Notes under the pieces: model-generated
Databases searched by the model: none
Seen by the model: only the letters and a program-made list of their open reading frames with translations
What the model was told of the DNA's origin: nothing
Translations under genes and position numbers: made by a program
Assembly: GCA_017468085.1 (NCBI GenBank)
Contig: JAFUJR010000007.1
Coordinates: 19,439 to 83,438 of the forward strand
Direction: 5' to 3'
Source: Clostridia bacterium
Lineage (GTDB): Bacteria; Bacillota; Clostridia; Christensenellales; Borkfalkiaceae
DNA: 64,000 bases
Shown here: positions 16,746 to 59,651 of the stretch, one piece after another
Position numbering within the stretch: position 1 is the first letter of the stretch
How the letters are laid out: each line of letters begins with the position of its first letter

Positions 16746-19700
16746 TTAAATTTCGAGCATACCCTCGTAGACGGTTTTCACGTTCCCGCTAAGCTCAACT
16801 TCACCATCGGAATGATAATTAACCGTCAAATCGCCGCCGCGAAGTTTGACCGTTACGTTGATATCCATCTCGCAATAGCCGCGAAGCACAGCCGCCACAA
16901 CCGCCGCACAAGCGCCCGTACCGCACGCCCACGTTTCACCGTTGCCGCGCTCGTAAGCGCGCATTTTTAAGGTAACCTTATTGACGACGCGCACAAACTC
17001 CGTACTGATTCCCTTGGGAAAATATTCGCTGTTTTCAAATTCCGCGCCAACCGCCGCCAAATTGATTGCGTCCACTTTATCGCTGAAAATAACGCAATGC
17101 GGATTACCTACGTTGACAAGATTGATTTGATAATCGTTGCCACCCACGCGCACGGTTTTATCGACAATCTGCTTTTCTTTGAATACGCAAGGGATCTTTT
17201 TGCCTTCCAATTCCACCTTGCCAAGATTTACGCTTGCCGTGTTTACCTTACCGCTGAAAGAATATACTTTCACCTCGCAAATGCCTTTACCGACTTCGAT
17301 TTTCATATCGTTCTTGCGGACGATGCCCTTTTCATACAAATACTTACCTACACAGCGGATTGCATTCCCTCCCGTAGGCATTTCCACACCGTCGCCGTTG
17401 AAAAGGCGCATTTTTGCGTCTGCAACCTCGGAATTTTCAATCAATACGATTCCGTCCCCGCCAATGCCGTAATGCGGCAAAGCGTAGTTGACGGCTATCG
17501 ATTCAGGACAAGTGATTTTTCCGTCGCGATTATCAAAAACAATAAAATCGTTTCCGCAAGATTGCATCTTCGTAAAGCTCAATTTTAATTTTTCACCGCG
17601 CAATGCGTTGATGTCTACAAGCTCAGTGTTGTTTTCCGTAAATTTACTTGCGATAATATCCGCGAGCGCATTTGCCGTATCCAACGCCGTAAGCACCGTG
17701 ATACCAAGCAAAATTGCGTGATGGTGTAAACGAATAAAGTCGTTGATGGATTCAATGTCCGTCTTGCCCGTATAAACGATATAGTCAATCTTTCCTTCGT
17801 CCATCAATTTGATGACGGTATCTGTAGCGGAAAGTCTATCCACCACTTGGCAGTCAAAGCCAAGGTCGGTAATGACCTTTGCCGTACCCTTGGTTGCATA
17901 CATGGTACAACCCAAATCGCCAAATTTCTTGGCAATCGTAAGCAAGTCGAGCTTGTCTTGATCGTTTACCGTCATATACACGCCCACGGAACGGCGTTCG
18001 GAAGGATGACACATCTTAAAGCCTGCGGAAACAAGCCCTTTAAACATTGCCTCCTCTATCGTTTTGCCGATACCGAGGACTTCGCCCGTCGATTTCATTT
18101 GAGGTCCGAGCTGAGAGTTTACGTCATTGAGTTTTTCAAAGCTGAATACGGGCACTTTGACCGCCACGTAAGGCGAAGAAGGATATAAGCCCGTGCCATA
18201 GCCGAGTTTTTTGAGTTTTGCTCCGACGATAATTTTCGTAGCAAGCTCTACCATAGGCACGCCCGTTACCTTAGAAATATAAGGCACGGTACGCGAAGCA
18301 CGGGGATTCACCTCGATTACGTAAAGCTGCCCGCGATAAATCAAATATTGAATGTTGATAAGCCCTTTGGTTTTAAGCTCTAACGCAAGCTGAGTAGAAA
18401 CCTCGATAATTCTTTCGAGCATAGAATCTTCAAGGTTATAAGGAGGATATACGGCAATGGAGTCGCCCGAGTGAATACCCGTACGCTCGATATGTTGCAT
18501 AATGCCGGGAATAAGAACGTCCTTTCCGTCCGAAATGGCGTCCACTTCCAATTCCGTACCCATCAAATATTGGTCGCAAAGTACGGGATTTTCGATGCCT
18601 TGCGCCAAGATAACGTCCATATAGCGGCAAACGTCCTCGGGGGTGAACGCAATCGTCATATTTTGACCGCCGATAACGTAGGAAGGACGAAGAAGAACGG
18701 GATATTCCAATGCTTCCGCCGCCGCCAACGCCTCTTCCTTAGTCATAACCGTCATTGCCTTGGGGCGGGGAATTGCATATTTTTCAAGCAAAGCCTCAAA
18801 GCGCTCTCTGTCCTCTGCTCTGTCTACGCTGTCTGCAGGCGTACCCAAAATACGTATACCGTGCGTATTGAAATAGGCGCAGAGGTTGATTGCCGTTTGC
18901 CCGCCGAATGTGATGATGACGCCGTAAGGCTTTTCCACGTCTAAAACGTGTTGCACGTCCTCGGGGGTCAACGGTTCAAAATACAATCTGTCCGCCGTAT
19001 CAAAATCCGTGGAAACGGTTTCGGGGTTGTTGTTAATGATGACAACCTCGTAGCCAAGCTCCTTCAACGTCCAAACGCAATGCACAGAAGAATAGTCGAA
19101 TTCGATCCCCTGTCCAATGCGGATAGGACCGGATCCGATAACGACGATGCGTTTTTTCTTCCCACCGACGAAAGGCTTTGCCTCGTCGTGCTCGTGCGGG
19201 TCGAACGTCGAATAGAAATACGGAGTTTTCGCAGGGAATTCTGCCGCGCAAGTATCCACCATTTTATAGGCAACTTTTTTACGATAAGGAACCTTTTGCC
19301 CGCTGAGCGCGGCAATATCTTTATCCAAATAGCCAAGACGCTTCCCTTCCTCGTAAAGCGCTTTCGTCAGTTTCTCACCCGAAGCAAGACGATTTTCGTA
19401 ACGGATAAGATTGAGGAATTTATTTAAGAACCAACGGTCAATTTTGGTGATTTTGAACACCTCGTCTACCGTAACGCCCTTTTTGAGCGCCGCATATACG
19501 ACAAAAATTCTTTCGTCTGTCATCTCGGGCAACTTTGCCAACAATTCCTCTTTACTGGAATTGATAAATTTCTTATAATTGAAAGTGCTTGTCGAAATTT
19601 CCGCGCCGCGCACTGCTTTCATCATCGCCATTTCAAAGGACGTACCGATGGACATTACTTCGCCCGTTGCTTTCATTCTCGTACCTAATTCGCGCTTTGC

Positions 19701-20801
19701 ATACAAGAATTTGTCAAACGGCCACTTGGGCATCTTTACAACCAAATAGTCGATTGTCGGCTCGAAACAAGCGTAGGTTTTACCCGTAACGTCGTTTACG
19801 ATTTCATCCAAGGTATAACCGAGCGCAATCTTCGACGTAACCTTAGCAATCGGGAAGCCCGTCGCTTTGGACGCAAGCGCAGAAGAACGGCTTACACGGG
19901 GATTTACCTCGATTACGGAATACTCGAAAGAATCGGGATTTAACGCAAACTGCACGTTACAGCCGCCCTCGATGCCAAGCTCGGTGATAATAGACAGAGC
20001 CGCCGTACGGAGCATGTTATATTCTTTGGTGGTGAGTGTTACCGCGGGGGCAACCACGATGGAGTCGCCCGTGTGAATGCCGACGGGGTCGACGTTTTCC
20101 ATAGAGCAGACCGTAAGGCAATTGCCGTTTCTATCGCGAATAACCTCAAACTCAACCTCTTTCCAACCTGCAATATATTTTTCAATCAAGACCTGCGTAA
20201 TGGGCGAAAGCATCAAACCGTTATGAGAAATGAGGCGGAGCTCTTCTTCGTTGTACGCTACGCCACCGCCTGCGCCGCCGAGAGTATATGCAGGACGAAT
20301 GATAACGGGATAGCCAAGCTTATCCGCAATCGCGACGCATTCTTCTACCGTATAAGCAATGTCGGAGGGAACGCAAGGCTGATTGATTTTTTCCATAGTT
20401 TCCTTGAAGAGCTCTCTATCCTCCGAACGATCAATTGCGTCTAATTTCGTACCGATAAGCTTTACGCCGTGTTCTTCCAAAAAGCCCGATTTTGCAAGTT
20501 TACAACCCATAGTAAGACCCGTTTGCCCGCCGAGCGATGCCAACAAGCTGTCGGGTTTTTCTTTTAAAATAATACGCTTTAAGGATTCCTCGGTCAGGGG
20601 TTCGAGGTAAATTTCATCGGCGAGTGCTTTATCCGTCATGATCGTAGCGGGGTTGGAGTTGCAAAGTACAACGTTCACACCCTCGCTCTTCATGACGCGG
20701 CAAGCCTGCGCGCCTGCATAGTCGAATTCTGCGGCTTGACCGATTACGATAGGACCAGAGCCAATCACCAAAACCTTTTTAATATCACTTCTCTTAGGCA
20801 T
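16746..20801 (-). CDS. carB: Carbamoyl-phosphate synthase large subunit fused to a DapF-like domain
   Basis: A 1351-aa in-frame fusion. Residues 1 to about 1070 are a full CarB: the two homologous ATP-grasp halves (EVNPRVSRSSAL and EVNPRASRTVPY motifs) and a C-terminal MGS-like allosteric domain. Residues about 1071-1351 are a diaminopimelate epimerase (DapF) fold with SCGNDF, GNPHC, YERG and ACGTGAC. In this domain the first catalytic cysteine (Cys73 of Haemophilus DapF) is Gly1144 and a substrate Asn (Asn190) is Ser1266, while the second catalytic cysteine (Cys1293), His and Glu remain. So CarB looks active, while the epimerase reaction is doubtful. There is no stop or internal ribosome site at the junction. 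It overlaps carA by 8 nt. Confidence 0.93.
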   Translation of the reverse strand: MPKRSDIKKVLVIGSGPIVIGQAAEFDYAGAQACRVMKSEGVNVVLCNSNPATIMTDKALADEIYLEPLTEESLKRIILKEKPDSLLASLGGQTGLTMGCKLAKSGFLEEHGVKLIGTKLDAIDRSEDRELFKETMEKINQPCVPSDIAYTVEECVAIADKLGYPVIIRPAYTLGGAGGGVAYNEEELRLISHNGLMLSPITQVLIEKYIAGWKEVEFEVIRDRNGNCLTVCSMENVDPVGIHTGDSIVVAPAVTLTTKEYNMLRTAALSIITELGIEGGCNVQFALNPDSFEYSVIEVNPRVSRSSALASKATGFPIAKVTSKIALGYTLDEIVNDVTGKTYACFEPTIDYLVVKMPKWPFDKFLYAKRELGTRMKATGEVMSIGTSFEMAMMKAVRGAEISTSTFNYKKFINSSKEELLAKLPEMTDERIFVVYAALKKGVTVDEVFKITKIDRWFLNKFLNLIRYENRLASGEKLTKALYEEGKRLGYLDKDIAALSGQKVPYRKKVAYKMVDTCAAEFPAKTPYFYSTFDPHEHDEAKPFVGGKKKRIVVIGSGPIRIGQGIEFDYSSVHCVWTLKELGYEVVIINNNPETVSTDFDTADRLYFEPLTPEDVQHVLDVEKPYGVIITFGGQTAINLCAYFNTHGIRILGTPADSVDRAEDRERFEALLEKYAIPRPKAMTVMTKEEALAAAEALEYPVLLRPSYVIGGQNMTIAFTPEDVCRYMDVILAQGIENPVLCDQYLMGTELEVDAISDGKDVLIPGIMQHIERTGIHSGDSIAVYPPYNLEDSMLERIIEVSTQLALELKTKGLINIQYLIYRGQLYVIEVNPRASRTVPYISKVTGVPMVELATKIIVGAKLKKLGYGTGLYPSSPYVAVKVPVFSFEKLNDVNSQLGPQMKSTGEVLGIGKTIEEAMFKGLVSAGFKMCHPSERRSVGVYMTVNDQDKLDLLTIAKKFGDLGCTMYATKGTAKVITDLGFDCQVVDRLSATDTVIKLMDEGKIDYIVYTGKTDIESINDFIRLHHHAILLGITVLTALDTANALADIIASKFTENNTELVDINALRGEKLKLSFTKMQSCGNDFIVFDNRDGKITCPESIAVNYALPHYGIGGDGIVLIENSEVADAKMRLFNGDGVEMPTGGNAIRCVGKYLYEKGIVRKNDMKIEVGKGICEVKVYSFSGKVNTASVNLGKVELEGKKIPCVFKEKQIVDKTVRVGGNDYQINLVNVGNPHCVIFSDKVDAINLAAVGAEFENSEYFPKGISTEFVRVVNKVTLKMRAYERGNGETWACGTGACAAVVAAVLRGYCEMDINVTVKLRGGDLTVNYHSDGEVELSGNVKTVYEGMLEI

Positions 20802-21873
20802 TTTCTTTCTCCTCTTCCATCATCGAAAAGAATTTTGCGTAAATCGGATTTTCCGCATTTCCAATATCGCAACAATCGGGGGTAAATTGCACCGTAATCG
20901 CTTTTAAAGCGTTATATTCAATACCTTCGCAAGTACCGTCGTTTACGTTAATGAAATTCACCGTCCCCGCTTTCACACTGTCGTTTATCACGACGTAGCC
21001 GTGATTTTGCGTAGAGATATAAACCTTGCCGCTTTCCAGGCATTTGACGGGTTGATTGCCTCCGCGGTGTCCGTACTTGTGCTTTTCCACTTTTGCGCCG
21101 AGTGCCAACGCAACAAGCTGATGTCCAAGCCCCAAGCCAAAAATGGGTTTCTTGCCCAAGACCTTTTTTATTTCCTCAACGGACTTTGCATAATCGTTGG
21201 GATTGCCGGGGCCTTCCGAAATCACGATGCCGTCCCCGCCCGATGCCAAAATTTCTTCCGCCGTAGCGTCCCCTCGTAAATTCATAACGTTATAGCCAAG
21301 GGAAAGGAATTTTTCAATCGTACTGTTTTTCGCGCCGAAATTCCAAAGCGTAATATATTTTGTATTCCCTTCACGGCAAACGGAATTCTCAAAAGATTCT
21401 TGGCTGAAATCATGCGCGTGTTGGCGATGGTTTGCAAGCGCTTTAATCTCTGCTTCCGTTAAAGGCTTTAAGCTGATACGTGCGTTCATCGTGCCTTCTT
21501 CGCGAAGTATCTTTGTCAATTGACGGGTGTCCACGCCATAGATGCCAACGACGTTTTGCTCCTTTAAATAGTTTTCTAATTTCCCTTCCATGCGGAAATT
21601 GGACGGTTCGTCGCAGATTTCGCGCACAACGTATGCCGAAACGCTCGCTTTTTTTCCCTCGACGTCCGAATAAACCATTCCGTAATTGCCGATTAAAGGA
21701 AATGTCTGCATAAGAATTTGACCTTGGTTACAAGGATCGCTCAATGCTTCTATATAACCGACCATGCCCGTATTAAAAACGAGCTCGCCCGAAACCTCTC
21801 CTTCGGCGCCAAACGAGTAGCCTTGGAAAACCCTGCCGTTTTGTAACGTCAAATACACCTTTTTCTTTTTCAT
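20794..21873 (-). CDS. carA: Carbamoyl-phosphate synthase small subunit with lost glutaminase triad
   Basis: The 359-aa protein aligns over its whole length with CarA: N-terminal CPSase_sm domain (FNTGMVGY, DTRQLTK) and a class I glutamine amidotransferase-like domain. In the latter the nucleophile motif GICLGHQ is GLGLGHQ, so the catalytic Cys is Gly248. The FHPE motif is FTPD, so the catalytic His and Glu are Thr331 and Asp333. The oxyanion-side SNGPGDP is SEGPGNP. Glutamine hydrolysis is therefore not expected, and the subunit is probably structural or regulatory, with CarB using ammonia. First gene of the car operon, after a 210-nt leader. Confidence 0.92.
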   Translation of the reverse strand: MKKKKVYLTLQNGRVFQGYSFGAEGEVSGELVFNTGMVGYIEALSDPCNQGQILMQTFPLIGNYGMVYSDVEGKKASVSAYVVREICDEPSNFRMEGKLENYLKEQNVVGIYGVDTRQLTKILREEGTMNARISLKPLTEAEIKALANHRQHAHDFSQESFENSVCREGNTKYITLWNFGAKNSTIEKFLSLGYNVMNLRGDATAEEILASGGDGIVISEGPGNPNDYAKSVEEIKKVLGKKPIFGLGLGHQLVALALGAKVEKHKYGHRGGNQPVKCLESGKVYISTQNHGYVVINDSVKAGTVNFINVNDGTCEGIEYNALKAITVQFTPDCCDIGNAENPIYAKFFSMMEEEKENA

Positions 21874-21909: not shown

Positions 21910-21942
21910 TAAAAAATAAGACTGATTACGAAAATCAGTCTT
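21910..21942 (-). terminator. Intrinsic terminator in the carA leader (probable attenuator)
   Basis: A perfect 10-bp stem (21918-21927 and 21933-21942) with a 5-nt loop is followed on the minus strand by a T-rich run (21917-21910). It sits 36 nt before the carA start and downstream of a consensus promoter, and the stop codon of the leader ORF lies inside the stem. It may also stop argJ read-through. Confidence 0.75.
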
Positions 21943-22069
21943 GTTTTGCTAAAATAAATATTGACTCTTGGAAAAGAGAAAACGAAAGAGAACCGTTCGC
22001 GCGAACGTTGTTACTTTCGCAACGGCCAACCATCGTAGACAAATTTTCAAAAGAGTAAACCGAATACAT
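21935..22069 (-). CDS. Putative 44-aa leader ORF upstream of carA
   Basis: Starts at ATG 22069-22067, about 15 nt after the predicted transcription start, with a modest TAGGTG ribosome site 5 nt upstream, and ends with TGA inside the attenuator stem. The peptide is rich in Ser and Phe and contains two Arg codons and a run of pyrimidine-rich codons (22000-21965). It is not a classic run of one amino acid. It may control the terminator by ribosome position or by transcription speed over the pyrimidine-rich stretch. It could also be a chance ORF. Confidence 0.4.
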   Translation of the reverse strand: MYSVYSFENLSTMVGRCESNNVRANGSLSFSLFQESIFILAKQD

Positions 22070-22092: not shown

Positions 22093-22121
22093 ATTATACC
22101 ATTATAATACGTCTTTGTCAA
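22093..22121 (-). promoter_or_regulatory. Consensus promoter of the carA operon
   Basis: Perfect TTGACA (22116-22121), 17-nt spacer and perfect TATAAT (22093-22098) on the minus strand. Predicted transcription start near 22085 leaves a leader of about 210 nt before carA. Confidence 0.88.
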
Positions 22122-22164: not shown

Positions 22165-23397
22165 TTAAATGCACGTATAACCAACCGATTTATAATTCCC
22201 CTGCGCAAGCTGGACGGACAATTCCACGCAAGAAGACGCAAAAATCTTTTTATATTGTTCTCGCATTTCAGGAACTCGTTTATCGTCCTCGTACACGATT
22301 GCCTCACCAAACTCCGAACGGATGCAAATACTCACGTTGTCAAACTCTTTTGTCCCGCCGATTTCCGCAACCGAAAATAATATATTTTCCGCGTTCACGC
22401 TCCCCCGTTTTATATCCTCTTTTACGGCAACCGAGCCGACTATTTTTTTTGCGAGCGCACGGGAGATTTGTGCGGATTGCGCGCCGTAAACGCGACAAAG
22501 CAAAATCCGATCCTTGTCCTTTCTATTTCGTAAAATTCGTAAGGCTATTTGATGGAAAAACTCCTTCAACGCCGACGTAAACTTTCTATAATCGGTGTCC
22601 TCGCAATCAATTCGCCAATTATCAGCCCGTCCGTTTGCCATAATACAAACCATATCATTCGGCGAGGAAATCCCGTCAATATCCATCAAATTCAGCGTTT
22701 CATTGACGGCGTACTGCAACGCTTTGCGAAGCATTTTCGGCGTAATATTTACGTCCGTCGTTACAAAGACCAGGGTCGTTGCCATATTGGGCGAAACGTG
22801 CGTATTCGCCTTAAAAACCGCGCCGATTTTACAAACGATTGCCCCAAGCTCGAAGGAAAAAGAAAGTTGCATAGGCTCCGCCCCACCGTTCGCCATCGCT
22901 TGCGCAACCGAATAGCTCGCCTCGTGCGAGCGCGCCAATTTTTCCGCCGCGGCGCTAACCCCTTTTTCAAAGGTTTGCAGAGAAAGTTCTTGCCCCATAA
23001 TACCCGTCGAAGCCACAACGACGTCCTCGGTGATGACGTTACAGTAATTTTCGACAATACGACACACGTCTTTTGCCAAACGCTCGCCGCCGAATTGAAA
23101 AGTGTTGGCAATGCCGCCGTTAACCACTATCGCGTGCGCATATTCGTTTTCCAAATGTCTTTCCGTAATGAGAATAGGCGCGCCACGCTTTGCGGAAGTC
23201 GTATAAACGCACGCAGTAGGACACCGCCTTTTCGATACGATTACCCCTAAATCCAATTCACCGTTTTGCTTAAAACCGCACGCAGCGCTGCTTGCACGAA
23301 AGTCGTCAGGAGCGCAAACGCCGCCCGGTATAGGCGTCAATTCTCTGTTGACCGCATTTTTTCTAACCGTCATATCATAATACCGTTTATTCTTCAA
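22165..23397 (-). CDS. argJ: Divergent ArgJ homologue (ornithine/glutamate N-acetyltransferase fold)
   Basis: ArgJ normally moves the acetyl group from N-acetylornithine to glutamate and is a self-cleaving Ntn-type enzyme. This 410-aa protein keeps the fold: an early PGG segment, NGGIANT, the oxyanion STGIMG, and the cleavage site PNMAT with nucleophile Thr207. Several family signatures are missing or changed: AKGSGMI before the nucleophile, the GEGATK lysine region, NWGRI, and the last ~12 residues with the INA and terminal Thr. Activity is therefore uncertain. The frame opens with TTG at 23397, overlapping the thioesterase by 11 nt; ATG at 23373 is an alternative. Neither has a good ribosome site, so coupling to the upstream gene is likely. 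Confidence 0.75.
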   Translation of the reverse strand: MKNKRYYDMTVRKNAVNRELTPIPGGVCAPDDFRASSAACGFKQNGELDLGVIVSKRRCPTACVYTTSAKRGAPILITERHLENEYAHAIVVNGGIANTFQFGGERLAKDVCRIVENYCNVITEDVVVASTGIMGQELSLQTFEKGVSAAAEKLARSHEASYSVAQAMANGGAEPMQLSFSFELGAIVCKIGAVFKANTHVSPNMATTLVFVTTDVNITPKMLRKALQYAVNETLNLMDIDGISSPNDMVCIMANGRADNWRIDCEDTDYRKFTSALKEFFHQIALRILRNRKDKDRILLCRVYGAQSAQISRALAKKIVGSVAVKEDIKRGSVNAENILFSVAEIGGTKEFDNVSICIRSEFGEAIVYEDDKRVPEMREQYKKIFASSCVELSVQLAQGNYKSVGYTCI

Positions 23398-27379: not shown

Positions 27380-27456
<77 letters not shown>

Positions 27457-27484: not shown

Positions 27485-27521
27485 GCGTGGAAGCGAGAGT
27501 GGCGAAGAAACTACGTATTAA

Positions 27522-27647
27522 CGGAGGTTCGCGCGAGGAGGCAAGCAAACCTTATTCATTATATCTGCTTTATTTTTCCTTGCCGACGAAGCTTTGGCGT
27601 AGCCAATTCCCTCTCGCGTCCACCACAATAGCACCCAATAGGGTGCT
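27522..27647 (+). repeat. tRNA-derived repeat, copy 1
   Basis: A 126-bp unit identical to 27693-27818. It contains the 5' half of the tRNA-Val T-arm, then about 75 inserted bases with inverted ends CGCGAG (27532-27537) and CTCGCG (27613-27618) and inner inverted GGCAAG/CTTGCC, then the tRNA 3' end with CCA and a terminator stem. Confidence 0.95.
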
Positions 27648-27692
27648 GTTTTTCTTTGCAGGATGCGAGAGTAGCGAAGAAAGTCCGCTTAG

Positions 27693-27818
27693 CGGAGGTT
27701 CGCGCGAGGAGGCAAGCAAACCTTATTCATTATATCTGCTTTATTTTTCCTTGCCGACGAAGCTTTGGCGTAGCCAATTCCCTCTCGCGTCCACCACAAT
27801 AGCACCCAATAGGGTGCT
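27693..27818 (+). repeat. tRNA-derived repeat, copy 2
   Basis: Exact copy of 27522-27647 at a period of 171 bp. The 45 bases between the two units are related but diverged, so the duplicated block was about 171 bp. Its terminator stem is followed by a T run and also reads toward the convergent acetyltransferase gene. Confidence 0.95.
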
Positions 27819-27829
27819 TTTTTATTTTC

Positions 27830-28645
27830 TTAAAGTCCTTTCGCTTGAATATTACAAAGACTGCCTACTTGGTAAAAGCCCACTTTTTTATAACAAGAAT
27901 TTGAGGCAATATATCCACCGTCCGCGTATAAAATGGGAATAAGCCCGTCTTTTAAAATTCCTTCCGCTACCTTATAAACAAGATTAATTGCATAACCCAT
28001 TCTACGGTATTGCGGCACGGTATATACAAGCGAGATCTTACTGTATTTTTCTCCATCTTCCTTGGCGGTAGTTGCTACAATATCTCCTTTCACATTTCTC
28101 CAAATAAAGATATTTCCCTTTTCAATCTTTTCTGCTATCAATTCTTTTGACCTTTGGATACTGAATTCCAAACCCTCCATTTCATAAGTCATTTCCTTAT
28201 AATAGCGTGAAAGAATTTCAATATCCACTTTATTTGCAAGTTCTATTTCTCCATCACAAACGTGCGGCGTATTTTCAAGTCTATCTAATCGATAGGATAA
28301 TAAATCCATTTTTAATCGGCAATCATTATACCGTGCGTCATGCTTCTTTAATTTTGCAAGCAGGGCTGTCGATAAAATGATATTATAACCACTTTCTAAA
28401 GGGAAGTTTTCCGCCAAAATTTGCATAATTGTTTCTACGTCTTGCAAATTATTTTCATCCTTACACCACACCCAAACAGGATAAGGCGCACTCGAATAAC
28501 AAACGATAAAACTCTCCCTGTTCGTAAAAATTTTACTGCATTTTCTTTTCAAAATTTTATGTAAAACCACATAGGTTATATTATTTTCAAGCAAGGCAGA
28601 AGAAAGAGCATCGCTTTGGTCGACTATATGCAAATATTTTTCCAT
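27830..28645 (-). CDS. GNAT-family N-acetyltransferase
   Basis: A 271-aa protein whose C-terminal half is a GNAT domain: the acetyl-CoA pyrophosphate loop appears as PQYRRMGYA (about residues 219-227) after a VYTV beta strand. The N-terminal ~110 residues form a second, degenerate GNAT-like or family-specific domain. Substrate unknown. The start at 28645 is chosen because TAGGTG lies 5 nt upstream; a longer frame to 28702 would begin inside the neighbouring terminator. Cytoplasmic, with no operon partner. Confidence 0.8.
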   Translation of the reverse strand: MEKYLHIVDQSDALSSALLENNITYVVLHKILKRKCSKIFTNRESFIVCYSSAPYPVWVWCKDENNLQDVETIMQILAENFPLESGYNIILSTALLAKLKKHDARYNDCRLKMDLLSYRLDRLENTPHVCDGEIELANKVDIEILSRYYKEMTYEMEGLEFSIQRSKELIAEKIEKGNIFIWRNVKGDIVATTAKEDGEKYSKISLVYTVPQYRRMGYAINLVYKVAEGILKDGLIPILYADGGYIASNSCYKKVGFYQVGSLCNIQAKGL

Positions 28646-28712: not shown

Positions 28713-29714
28713 TTACGCTTTCATCGCTTCTTCGATAGCAACCGCGCAAGCAACCGTCATACCAACCATGGGGTTGTTACCTGCACCGATCAAGCCCATC
28801 ATTTCTACGTGAGCGGGAACGGAGCTCGAACCAGCGAACTGTGCGTCGGAGTGCATTCTGCCCATCGTATCCGTCATACCGTAGGAAGCGGGACCAGCCG
28901 CCATGTTGTCGGGGTGGAGCGTTCTGCCCGTACCGCCACCGGAAGCAACGGAGAAGTATTCTACGCCGTTTTCGTTGCACCACTTCTTGTACGTGCCTGC
29001 AACAGGGTGCTGGAATCTGGTAGGGTTCGTGGAGTTACCCGTAATGGAAACGCCAACGTTTTCAAGCTTCATGATTGCAACGCCTTCGGGAACGGAGTCC
29101 GCACCGTAGCACTTAACCTTCGCACGAGGACCGTCGGAGAACGCTTTTTCATAAACGACTTCTACCGTTTCCGTAGCAGGATCGAACTTCGTTTCTACGA
29201 AGGTGAAACCGTTGATTCTGGAAATAATATAAGCAGCGTCTTTACCAAGACCGTTCAAAATAACGCGCAAGGGTTGTTTTCTTACCTTGTTTGCATTGAG
29301 CGCAATGGAAATAGCGCCTTCAGCCGCCGCAAAAGATTCATGTCCGGCAAGGAAGCAGAAACATTCCGTTTCATCGGAAAGAAGCTTCGCGCCAAGGTTA
29401 CCGTGTCCAAGACCGACAAGACGGTTTTGCGCAACGGAACCGGGGATACAGAACGCCTGCAAACCGATACCGATAGCCGCAGCCGCGTCGGAAGCCTTCG
29501 TGCAGCCTTTCTTAATTGCGATAGCCGAGCCTACCGTGTAAGCCCAAACTGCGTTTTCAAAACAGATAGGTTGACCTGCGCGAACGATTTTATCGCAGTC
29601 AACGCCTTTCGCAAGGCAGATATCTCTACATTCTTCAACGGAGGAAATGCCGTATTCTTTCAAAACGCCATTGATTTTTTCAATTCTTCTTTCATAACCT
29701 TCAAATAATGCCAT
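28713..29714 (-). CDS. GGGtGRT protein, function unknown
   Basis: A 333-aa member of the GGGtGRT family (Pfam GGGtGRT protein), named after the motif seen here as SGGGTGRTLHPDN near residue 258. It is rich in small residues, has several conserved cysteines (about residues 26, 40, 51, 71) and glycine-rich stretches (AAIGIGLQAF, GLIGAGNNPM), and no membrane segment. The family has no assigned reaction. It directly follows a NifU-like scaffold gene (17 nt), an association I know from other anaerobes, so a role linked to Fe-S or metal-cluster chemistry is inferred. Ribosome site AGGAGG is present. Confidence 0.9.
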   Translation of the reverse strand: MALFEGYERRIEKINGVLKEYGISSVEECRDICLAKGVDCDKIVRAGQPICFENAVWAYTVGSAIAIKKGCTKASDAAAAIGIGLQAFCIPGSVAQNRLVGLGHGNLGAKLLSDETECFCFLAGHESFAAAEGAISIALNANKVRKQPLRVILNGLGKDAAYIISRINGFTFVETKFDPATETVEVVYEKAFSDGPRAKVKCYGADSVPEGVAIMKLENVGVSITGNSTNPTRFQHPVAGTYKKWCNENGVEYFSVASGGGTGRTLHPDNMAAGPASYGMTDTMGRMHSDAQFAGSSSVPAHVEMMGLIGAGNNPMVGMTVACAVAIEEAMKA

Positions 29715-29731
29715 TTGCTTGTCCTCCTTTA

Positions 29732-30442
29732 TTACTCTTTACGAGGGTCGATGAATTTAACCGCACCCTGTTCTGCCGTAAATCTACCGTAATGACCCAT
29801 AGCCTTTGCGTAAGCCTCGTTGGGTTCCATACCTTTCTTGATAAAGTCGGTCATTTTGCCGAGGGAAACGAATTCATAGCCGATAACTTCGTTGTTTGCG
29901 TCAAGCGCAAGACGGGTTACGTAGCCTTCTGCCATTTCGAGATATCTAACGCCTTTTTGAAGGGTGGAATACATCGTACCCACCTGCGAACGGTGCCCTT
30001 TACCAAGGTCTTCCAAGCCCGCGCCGATAACAAGACCGTCATCGGAGAATGCAGACTGCGAACGTCCGTAAACGATTTGCAAGAACAATTCTCTCATTGC
30101 CGTATTGATAGCGTCGCAAACCAAGTCGGTATTGAGCGCTTCAAGGGGAGTTTTTCCCGGCAAAATTTCAGCCGCCATAGCCGCGGAATGGGTCATACCC
30201 GAACAACCGATGGTTTCTACGAGAGCTTCTTGAATGATACCCTGCTTAATGTTCAACGAGAGCTTACAAGCGCCCTGTTGAGGAGCGCACCAGCCGATAC
30301 CGTGGGTAAAGCCGCTGATGTCTTTGATTTCTTTCGCATGAACCCACTTACCTTCTTCGGGAATCGGGGCATTTTCATGACGAGCAACGCCTGCGCCTTT
30401 TGCAACGCAGTACATTTCTTGAACTTCTGACGAAATAGTCAT
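29732..30442 (-). CDS. NifU-like iron-sulfur assembly scaffold protein
   Basis: A 236-aa protein with a NifU/IscU N-terminal-like fold, recognised by IGCSGMTHSAAMAAEIL (about residues 78-94), GWCAPQQGAC near 50-59 and a later YGR segment. Cysteines at about 52, 59 and 80 could bind a cluster. The length is greater than IscU (~130 aa), and the family is often annotated only as an Fe-S scaffold next to GGGtGRT proteins. First gene of a two-gene operon behind a good promoter; no cysteine desulfurase is adjacent. Confidence 0.82.
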   Translation of the reverse strand: MTISSEVQEMYCVAKGAGVARHENAPIPEEGKWVHAKEIKDISGFTHGIGWCAPQQGACKLSLNIKQGIIQEALVETIGCSGMTHSAAMAAEILPGKTPLEALNTDLVCDAINTAMRELFLQIVYGRSQSAFSDDGLVIGAGLEDLGKGHRSQVGTMYSTLQKGVRYLEMAEGYVTRLALDANNEVIGYEFVSLGKMTDFIKKGMEPNEAYAKAMGHYGRFTAEQGAVKFIDPRKE

Positions 30443-58943: not shown

Positions 58944-59017
<74 letters not shown>

Positions 59018-59039
59018 ACTAAAAGAGCGTGTCGTTTAT

Positions 59040-59116
59040 GCGCCTGTAGCTCAGTTGGATAGAGCAACGGCCTTCTAAGCCGTGTGTCAGGAGTTCGAAT
59101 CTCTTCAGGCGCACCA
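59040..59116 (+). tRNA. tRNA-Arg (anticodon TCT)
   Basis: Complete cloverleaf; anticodon loop CTTCTAA; acceptor GCGCCTG/CAGGCGC, encoded ACCA. Confidence 0.95.
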
Positions 59117-59126
59117 CAACATATAT

Positions 59127-59204
59127 GGCGGGTGTAGCTCAGTTGGTTAGAGCGCCAGATTGTGGCCCTGGAGGTCGTGAGTTCGATTCTCGTCGCCCGC
59201 CCCA
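59127..59204 (+). tRNA. tRNA-His (anticodon GTG)
   Basis: Anticodon loop TTGTGGC; the extra 5' G (-1) at 59127 pairs with discriminator C73, the tRNA-His identity element; encoded CCA. Confidence 0.95.
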
Positions 59205-59221
59205 CTTTTTTAATCCCATAT

Positions 59222-59297
59222 TGGGGTGTCGCCAAGTGGTTAAGGCACCGGATTTTGATTCCGGCATTCGTAGGTTCAAATCCTGCCACCCCAGCCA
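59222..59297 (+). tRNA. tRNA-Gln (anticodon TTG)
   Basis: Anticodon loop TTTTGAT; acceptor TGGGGTG/CACCCCA, discriminator G, encoded CCA. Confidence 0.95.
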
Positions 59298-59336
59298 CTA
59301 TGTGGCATACACAAAAATGAATAGCGCCCACTATTT

Positions 59337-59412
59337 GGCCCATTAGCTCAGTTGGTAGAGCACAGGATTTTTAATCCTGGTGTCCGGAGTTCGAGCCTCC
59401 GATGGACCACCA
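59337..59412 (+). tRNA. tRNA-Lys (anticodon TTT)
   Basis: Anticodon loop TTTTTAA; T-loop TTCGAGC; encoded ACCA. Acceptor GGCCCAT against ATGGACC leaves a C3-A70 mismatch, where related tRNAs have T3. Confidence 0.92.
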
Positions 59413-59419
59413 GACGTGT

Positions 59420-59495
59420 GGATGATTAGCTCAGTTGGTAGAGCAACTGACTCTTAATCAGTGGGCCCAGGGTTCGAGTCCCTGATCGTCCACCA
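59420..59495 (+). tRNA. tRNA-Lys (anticodon CTT)
   Basis: Anticodon loop CTCTTAA; acceptor GGATGAT/ATCGTCC with one T-G pair; encoded ACCA. Confidence 0.94.
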
Positions 59496-59498
59496 AAT

Positions 59499-59540
59499 GT
59501 AAACAGTTCGATTTTGGACCTCTAAAATCGAACTGTTTAC
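59499..59540. repeat. Perfect 17-bp inverted repeat between tRNA genes
   Basis: Arms 59499-59515 and 59524-59540 are exact complements around an 8-nt loop, directly after tRNA-Lys(CTT). No T run follows on the plus strand, so it is not a textbook terminator. It may end the six-tRNA transcript, be a processing signal, or be an element end. Confidence 0.9.
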
Positions 59541-59576
59541 ATAAAAAACGTATTATACTATGAAAAAATACAACAA

Positions 59577-59651
59577 GGCCTTATCGTCTAGCGGTTAGGA
59601 CGGCGCCCTCTCACGGCGCAAACTCGGGTTCGAGTCCCGATAAGGTCACCA
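59577..59651 (+). tRNA. tRNA-Glu (anticodon CTC)
   Basis: Anticodon loop CTCTCAC; acceptor GGCCTTA/TAAGGTC; T-loop TTCGAGT; encoded ACCA. Separated from the other six by the inverted repeat. It borders the decaying mobile island, making it the probable integration site. Confidence 0.95.

Follow-up and report, generated by a model that had tools for sequence, protein, structure and literature searches.

The accessible part of PMC6245113 treats glutamine as the nitrogen donor for all bacterial carbamoyl phosphate synthases (CPSases), and that of PMC4655335 does so for every CPS type save CPS1. According to the latter, human CPS1 (PDB 5dot) retains the glutaminase domain with its nucleophile replaced by Ser294, and Gln318 blocks the tunnel at the position of E. 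coli Gly293. Ammonia-using forms are described for other synthetases, as far as the accessible parts of the sources go: the ATP pyrophosphatase (ATPPase) of the archaeal two-subunit GMP synthetase can by itself use external ammonia in vitro (PMC10526850, a review), and the NAD synthetase family, with ammonia-using and glutamine-using forms of which the former was proposed as ancestral (PMC3376133), offers a precedent for one synthetase existing in both an ammonia-only and a glutamine form. Here we describe a stretch of 64,000 nucleotides from contig JAFUJR010000007.1 of a Clostridia bacterium (GCA_017468085.1), hereafter the window, which carries a carA gene for a CPSase small subunit that has lost its glutaminase triad. 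Judged from sequence comparison, CarAB of this lineage is very probably an ammonia-dependent CPSase in which CarA is kept as a structural or regulatory subunit, as part of a selective shift from glutamine to ammonia in nucleotide synthesis.

By homology the window protein is a CarA. TIGR01368 (CPSase small subunit) matches it over residues 7-353 with 354.9 bits, the curated cut-off being 307.35, the Pfam domains CPSase_sm_chain and GATase (glutamine amidotransferase) cover residues 8-133 and 179-333, and it is identical to E. coli MG1655 CarA in 130 of 358 columns. An earlier note on this DNA had claimed that Gly248, Thr331 and Asp333 stand in for Cys269, His353 and Glu355, and the E. coli alignment bears this out, for a gene on the minus strand (Table 1). 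The nucleophile motif reads GLGLGHQ and the second motif QFTPD, so that the protein has Gly-Thr-Asp in place of the Cys-His-Glu that marks a glutamine-hydrolysing CPSase small subunit (TIGR01368) and would fall outside that catalytic class. Since Gly-Thr-Asp is also found in the CarA of genome G034, 75% identical to that of the window, and the Cys is missing from each of the 30 CarA rows in the clade described below, the change is not a sequencing error. A second, intact carA in the same genome, which the earlier note had set against its own reading, was not found: the assembly, 82% complete and 5% contaminated, holds a single CarA, which is also its only class I GATase match.

Table 1. Features of the window discussed in the text, with positions counted from its first nucleotide
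Feature	Position	Strand	Basis
carA, 359 aa, small subunit of CPSase, glutaminase site dead	20794..21873, stop included	-	Open reading frame (ORF), Pfam, TIGR01368, triad by E. coli alignment
Gly248 codon GGG, nucleophile position (= E. coli Cys269)	21130..21132	-	alignment
Thr331 codon ACC, catalytic His position (= E. coli His353)	20881..20883	-	alignment
Asp333 codon GAT, catalytic Glu position (= E. coli Glu355)	20875..20877	-	alignment
carB-dapF fusion, 1351 aa, 8-base overlap with carA, CarB catalytic residues intact	16746..20801	-	
DapF part of the fusion, from about residue 1071 to 1351; Gly in place of the first Cys (E. coli Cys73), second Cys (Cys217) present	16746..17591	-	
guaA, GMP synthetase without GATase domain, 326 aa	31546..32526	-	aligns to residues 212-522 of full-length GuaA
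guaB (IMP dehydrogenase), 35 bases upstream of guaA	32562..34019	-	
Sigma-70 type promoter, TTGACA-17-TATAAT (12 of 12)	22093..22121	-	
Leader ORF, 44 aa, ends inside terminator stem	21935..22069	-	
Intrinsic terminator hairpin in carA leader	21918..21942	-	
argJ-like gene upstream of carA leader (arginine context)	22165..23397	-	

A first CarA search covered 61 genomes and gave matches in 53. The genus label used below is a code assigned to genomes, and it includes three (G001, G002, G031) whose CarA is of another type, 38-41% identical. The type found in the window, with CarB fused to DapF, occurs in 32 genus genomes. Cys is gone in 29 of these, the window's genome included, and His in all 27 that are readable there; the remaining three (G007, G010, G028), which lie in the sister branch, have Cys-His-Glu intact. 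Together with one named record from sheep colon the 29 Cys-less genomes make up the 30 rows of the clade, two of which are fragments. The residue at the Cys position is Gly in 28 rows, Asp in one and Glu in one; His is absent from 28 of 28 readable rows, and Glu is retained in 23 of 28. Most relatives thus lost Cys and His alone, and the full triple change is the exception. The idea that the loss of the triad is fixed in a clade therefore stands for Cys and His and falls for Glu. Thirteen relatives are named records, namely 12 metagenome-assembled genomes titled Clostridia or Clostridiales bacterium and one Peptococcaceae, and nine of the 13 titles mention deer or sheep gut.

At the level of the order 161 genomes were searched and 102 had a CarA match. 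Cys-His-Glu is kept in 94 of the 147 CarA sequences aligned from this and the earlier searches, E. coli and the window included. A CarA tree was built from 144 rows with the triad columns masked; G157_2, a second hit in one locus, was omitted from both the CarA and the other tree, and the fragments G099 and G055a were left out of the counts of tree states and CarB positions. The dead CarAs of the window's clade form one group of 30 rows with a support of 99 in the SH-like approximate likelihood ratio test (SH-aLRT), next to a sister group of nine rows, eight with Cys-His-Glu and one, G121, with Asp-His-Glu. Over the order the best tree requires at least 11 changes of triad state, five of them forced by strongly supported branches alone, and 12 for the Cys taken by itself. 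Some departures concern a single residue (Cys-Tyr-Glu and Cys-His-Asp are examples) and may leave the enzyme active, and the very long rows G073 and G109b, which group together, may be misplaced. A second, intact CarA stands beside the departed one in six genomes (G038, G075, G087, G109, G152, G193). Gly is also the replacement in 12 of the 15 other Cys-less rows, a prevalence that a strained nucleophile elbow tolerating Gly best would explain. Internal stop codons were seen in seven strong order-level CarA matches (G087, G093, G119, G128, G132, G189, G193), and one in G029.

The dead glutaminase domain is under purifying selection. The ratio of nonsynonymous to synonymous substitution rates (dN/dS), a rough value here because dS is near saturation in most pairs, lies at 0.08-0.16 for the GATase domain in eight close clade pairs and at 0.04-0.07 for the N-terminal domain (seven pairs with finite dS), the corresponding ranges in four pairs of intact CarAs with finite dS being 0.07-0.12 and 0.06-0.13. 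In 27 dead rows the GATase domain has a pairwise identity of 0.63 and the N-terminal domain one of 0.75, the values for 11 intact rows being 0.71 and 0.72; the GATase domain is therefore relaxed but held. Together with the conserved catalytic residues of CarB, the low dN/dS of the GATase domain supports the earlier suggestion of selection in place of recent decay. Columns lost in the dead rows concentrate at the active site (C248, H331, N220, G337-P338, D340), and most glycines, the QNH motif, Q329 and most structural columns are retained.

This pattern bears on two other ways to read the domain. CarA could be a sensor of glutamine or another metabolite, binding glutamine unsplit and gating a CarB that uses ammonia; the purifying selection fits this, as does the conservation of Gln289, Asn290, His291 and Gly250 in the clade. 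Since all 30 rows have another residue at N220 (E. coli N240), the G337-P338 region has been remodelled and the domain is less conserved than its N-terminal neighbour, we regard a sensor as unlikely; it would in any case overlap with the ammonia-dependent reading rather than replace it. The other is that a novel nucleophile elsewhere in CarA restores glutaminase activity. The elbow is retained with Gly nearly fixed at the nucleophile position in and outside the clade, and two serines specific to the clade would be candidates: Ser184 occurs in all 30 rows, most intact rows having Asn there, and Ser287 occurs in 28 of 29, with Thr usual in intact rows. The partner His is lost as well, there is no invariant Cys, Ser or Thr beside the elbow, and a new invariant Cys was not found in the clade, where the conserved Cys87, Cys315 and Cys335 are shared with intact sister rows. 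A restored glutaminase is thus the least probable of the explanations considered, and hardly credible.

The synthetase itself looks intact. We compared 18 CarB positions that we take to be catalytic, with their residues checked in the E. coli sequence, over 126 rows, some of them partial and with E. coli and the window included. Wherever a residue is present it equals that of E. coli, save at position 207, with Glu for Asp in the rows printed, and in G043 and G074, which have R675K; G042 has a gap at 285. By these positions both the bicarbonate and the carbamate kinase sites of the window CarB are intact. The ammonia gate residues C232, A251 and A314 are retained in 27 of 28 clade rows, the remaining row having a gap, and at the position of E. 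coli Gly293 the window CarA has Gly, while 29 of the 30 clade rows have Gly, Ser or Ala and the last has a gap. As read from the residues, the known Cys-based glutaminase mechanism is ruled out for the window CarA and a working synthetase is supported.

Compared with E. coli CarAB (1jdb, 1bxr), the window system shares the carA-carB order, near full-length homology and all of the 18 CarB positions but 207, and differs in that its CarA lacks the glutaminase triad. In this it resembles animal CPS I, which is built from the same CarA-like and CarB-like parts and which the window CarA matches over CPS1 residues 2-356: in both the glutaminase nucleophile is replaced with the domain retained and the kinase sites are intact. 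The window system is bacterial, however, with carA and carB as separate, slightly overlapping genes rather than a single fused chain, and its CarB carries a DapF tail; the clade has lost both Cys and His, and the window Glu too; and where CPS1 has Gln318 the window CarA keeps a small residue, so that the tunnel is not blocked there. A further mark of CPS I is its dependence on N-acetylglutamate. It is a system that works like CPS I without being CPS I, and since intact bacterial relatives exist its origin was probably independent.

CarA is not the only glutamine-using enzyme to have changed. PurF begins with MAVxG in all 26 dead-CarA genomes in which it is readable and with ECGVFG in intact relatives, so that the initiator Met occupies the Cys column, and its AHNGN motif is changed in nearly all dead-CarA genomes; it was unreadable in G009, a fragment, and gave no match in G020 and G021. 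It is intact in five of five genus genomes with Cys-His-Glu, and G035 has an extra intact copy. Of 51 rows, 49 have the motif for phosphoribosyl pyrophosphate (PRPP) unaltered and the other two have close variants of it. Dead CarA and Cys-less PurF also occur together in G042, a 51% complete genome of another family. Four loci (L393 in G031, L394 in G047, L395 in G048 and L396 in G045) showed a second PurF-like family, divergent from the first, which starts with MGGFFG and has Gly at the expected nucleophile Cys.

The window GuaA lacks the N-terminal GATase of the two-domain bacterial GMP synthetase. It scores 450.5 bits against TIGR00884 (cut-off 338.75), with the ATPPase and dimerisation domains present. 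The C-terminal domain of GuaA was found in 35 of 38 genus genomes, and in 26 of 26 assessable dead-CarA genomes the open frame has 321-348 aa, too short for a GATase domain; this call is by open-frame length, the sequence having been read in six (G000, G004, G006, G009, G013, G025). Not assessable were G003, a fragment, and G008 and G022, without a match; G011 and G035 have a full-length copy in addition. In G031, whose CarA of another lineage reads Gly-Gln-Glu, GuaA is also without GATase. The stand-alone ATPPase part recalls the archaeal enzyme, which in the accessible part of the review keeps a separate GATase subunit, whereas a PF00117 search of G000, G034, G036 and G026 gave no match resembling a GuaA GATase. 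Unlike what is proposed for NAD synthetase, ammonia use in the clade would be derived by loss, and in several pathways.

PyrG (PF06418) was found in eight of the 38 genus genomes: G001, G002, G007, G010, G028, G031, and G011 and G013, the two PyrG holders with both kinds of CarA. It was not found in 27 of the 29 dead-CarA assemblies, and it is present in all five Cys-His-Glu genomes of the genus. If PyrG is gone though UMP is made de novo, CTP would have to be supplied by salvage or by some unrecognised enzyme, which might use ammonia. Counted over the genus, 30 of 38 genomes (e.g. G034, G036, G026) are without a PF06418 match and 37 of 38 have pyrB. Because the window's genome, one of those 37, also has an apparent pyrB-C-F-K-D-E cluster (pyrB by model, the others read by eye), carbamoyl phosphate appears to be in demand; an arginine-only role of CarAB, an idea raised by the missing PyrG, was rejected on the same grounds. 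The window's genome further has purF, purM, purN, purD and purL clustered (purF and purL by models, the others by eye).

Other glutamine amidotransferases keep their motifs. PurL gave 52 matches, and all 30 of the loci read keep its Cys motif; the Cys, His and Glu motifs of HisH are kept in three of three read; and the GlmS Cys is kept in six of seven stretches fetched, GlmS not being among the ORFs printed for the stretch from G005. A general loss of all glutamine amidotransferases was thus rejected, and because these three keep their motifs the shift away from glutamine is selective. Glutamine synthetase matched in 55 of the 61 genomes, mostly as a form of about 700 aa in the genus; no match was found in G000, G005, G015, G023, G025 and G039, the window's assembly being among those without one.

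Ammonia might also reach CarB from a separate glutaminase or deaminase that docks on the CarA shell, with amino-acid nitrogen still the source. The conserved glutaminase shell and the conserved gate residues on the ammonia path would suit such a supply in trans, and an L-serine dehydratase-like pair, named by eye from its sequence, lies about 7 kb off (28713-30442). A screen of carA neighbours with arginine and pyrimidine genes as the only queries found none that is fixed but argJ (23 of 28 clade loci of at least 5 kb), the window's genome has no class I GATase match besides CarA, and the parallel losses in PurF and GuaA would require a partner each. We consider a docked partner improbable, slightly more so than a sensor.

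In an ammonia-dependent CarAB, then, CarA would be unable to hydrolyse glutamine by the known Cys mechanism; as a folded subunit it would hold the synthetase in working shape and may guide ammonia inward, and CarB would perform its two ATP-dependent steps unchanged, on free ammonia. The loss would have occurred once, at the base of the clade, and the same shift would have taken the PurF nucleophile, the GuaA glutaminase domain and PyrG, with PurL, HisH and GlmS staying on glutamine. Ammonia as donor would be the simplest consequence of the residues, with human CPS1 as the biochemical precedent, and the case is strengthened by the co-loss in PurF and GuaA and by the missing PyrG. The gut is an ammonia-rich habitat; we infer that this was the driver, and that the role left to CarA is structural.

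Several observations weigh against this reading. The accessible part of PMC6245113 states that E. coli CPSase requires very high, likely unphysiological ammonia, so that the CarBs of the clade would need a better affinity for ammonia or a very ammonia-rich cell. The open ammonia tunnel is not specific to the clade, because a small residue at CarA position 293 is also usual in intact CarAs. Glutamine seems to be available to the cells, given the kept PurL motif and the HisH and GlmS intact where read. PurF is intact in G044 and G059, which have lost the CarA triad, and the association of the two losses draws on few independent events: of four independent pairs two agree and two do not differ in PurF, which gives no statistical link (sign test, p 0.5). 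In G016, G022 and G029 the reading frame of CarB is split or shortened, which may be assembly error or real damage. Finally, two of the 29 dead-CarA genomes, G011 and G013, additionally carry an intact, unrelated CarA, possibly from contaminating contigs. Contigs with an intact CarA, GuaA, PyrG or PurF beside the dead set are C38 and C46 in G011, C33 in G013 and C14 in G035, and their GC content did not decide between contamination and real second copies.

The carA leader has a conserved layout. Of the 28 clade leaders read, 27 have both a consensus promoter and a terminator, the stem of the latter being G(A/G)CTGA, and mechanical tracing gave 26 of those 27 an open leader frame that ends in this stem. 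The tract before the hairpin is rich in T, with a mean of 0.48 compared with 0.24 elsewhere in the leader, and higher in 27 of 27. No such leader hairpin was found in G007, G028 or G015. The E. coli pyrL-pyrBI attenuator, which responds to UTP, shares a leader ORF of 44 aa, a T-rich tract and an ORF running into the terminator; here the leader sits before carA, and in Clostridia, and the likeness is one of layout, without a claim of homology. The layout suggests, without proof, pyrimidine control of carAB and hence an active carAB.

Upstream lies the argJ-like gene, whose product scores 228.6, below the curated cut-off of 298. A search of the window's genome likewise gave no ornithine carbamoyltransferase-like match, and the arginine pathway may be in change or in decay. 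In the sister rows G007 and G028, and in the clade member G015, carA is found inside an arginine cluster. One could extend this to the whole locus and suppose that CarAB no longer makes carbamoyl phosphate, to which the weak ArgJ score, the absent carbamoyltransferase match, the fused DapF without one catalytic Cys and the broken CarB frames would all be favourable. A decaying locus is nevertheless very improbable: the window CarB has its catalytic positions intact, as do the relatives wherever these positions are present, the named exceptions aside, dN/dS is low, pyrB is nearly universal in the genus, and the strong promoter and terminator are kept in nearly all leaders read.

The CarB-DapF fusion is spread over several families of the order, and a search of open-licence papers found no report of it. 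Cys73 and Cys217 of E. coli DapF are its catalytic Cys. The first is Gly in every genus row read, G007, G010 and G028 included; elsewhere it is kept in G041, G049, G078 and others, and is Ala in G108 and G109b, and G042 has lost both. A separate DapF was seen among dead-CarA genomes in G003, G011, G017, G020 and G026 only. At gathering scores Rfam matched only tRNAs in the window, seven of whose tRNA genes cluster at 58944-59648 on the plus strand. An ORF at 27487-27942 on the same strand, found mechanically, contains one 43-residue stretch twice, as a direct DNA repeat, and adjoins a tRNA at 27380-27453.

Annotation hides such losses, because CarA and the GATase-less GuaA both pass the cut-offs of NCBIfam models named 'glutamine-hydrolyzing'. 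In the open-licence literature searched, as judged by result listings, no report was found of a bacterial ammonia-only CPSase, a Cys-less PurF or a PyrG-less bacterium of this kind. A clade-wide and repeatedly evolved bacterial loss, if true, would contradict the donor assignments in the accessible parts of PMC6245113 and PMC4655335. On balance we favour the wider view that a whole clade of gut Clostridia has moved the entry of nucleotide nitrogen from glutamine to free ammonia, with dead CarA and PurF, a GATase-less GuaA and PyrG gone, and that this would be the first bacterial counterpart of CPS I, reached repeatedly in one order. The order would then offer many natural variants for asking how CarB lives on free ammonia and why the dead subunit stays. 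Taken with the losses in PurF and GuaA, the absence of PyrG suggests a testable rule, by which ammonia-rich habitats make channelled glutamine nitrogen dispensable for some enzymes and not for others.

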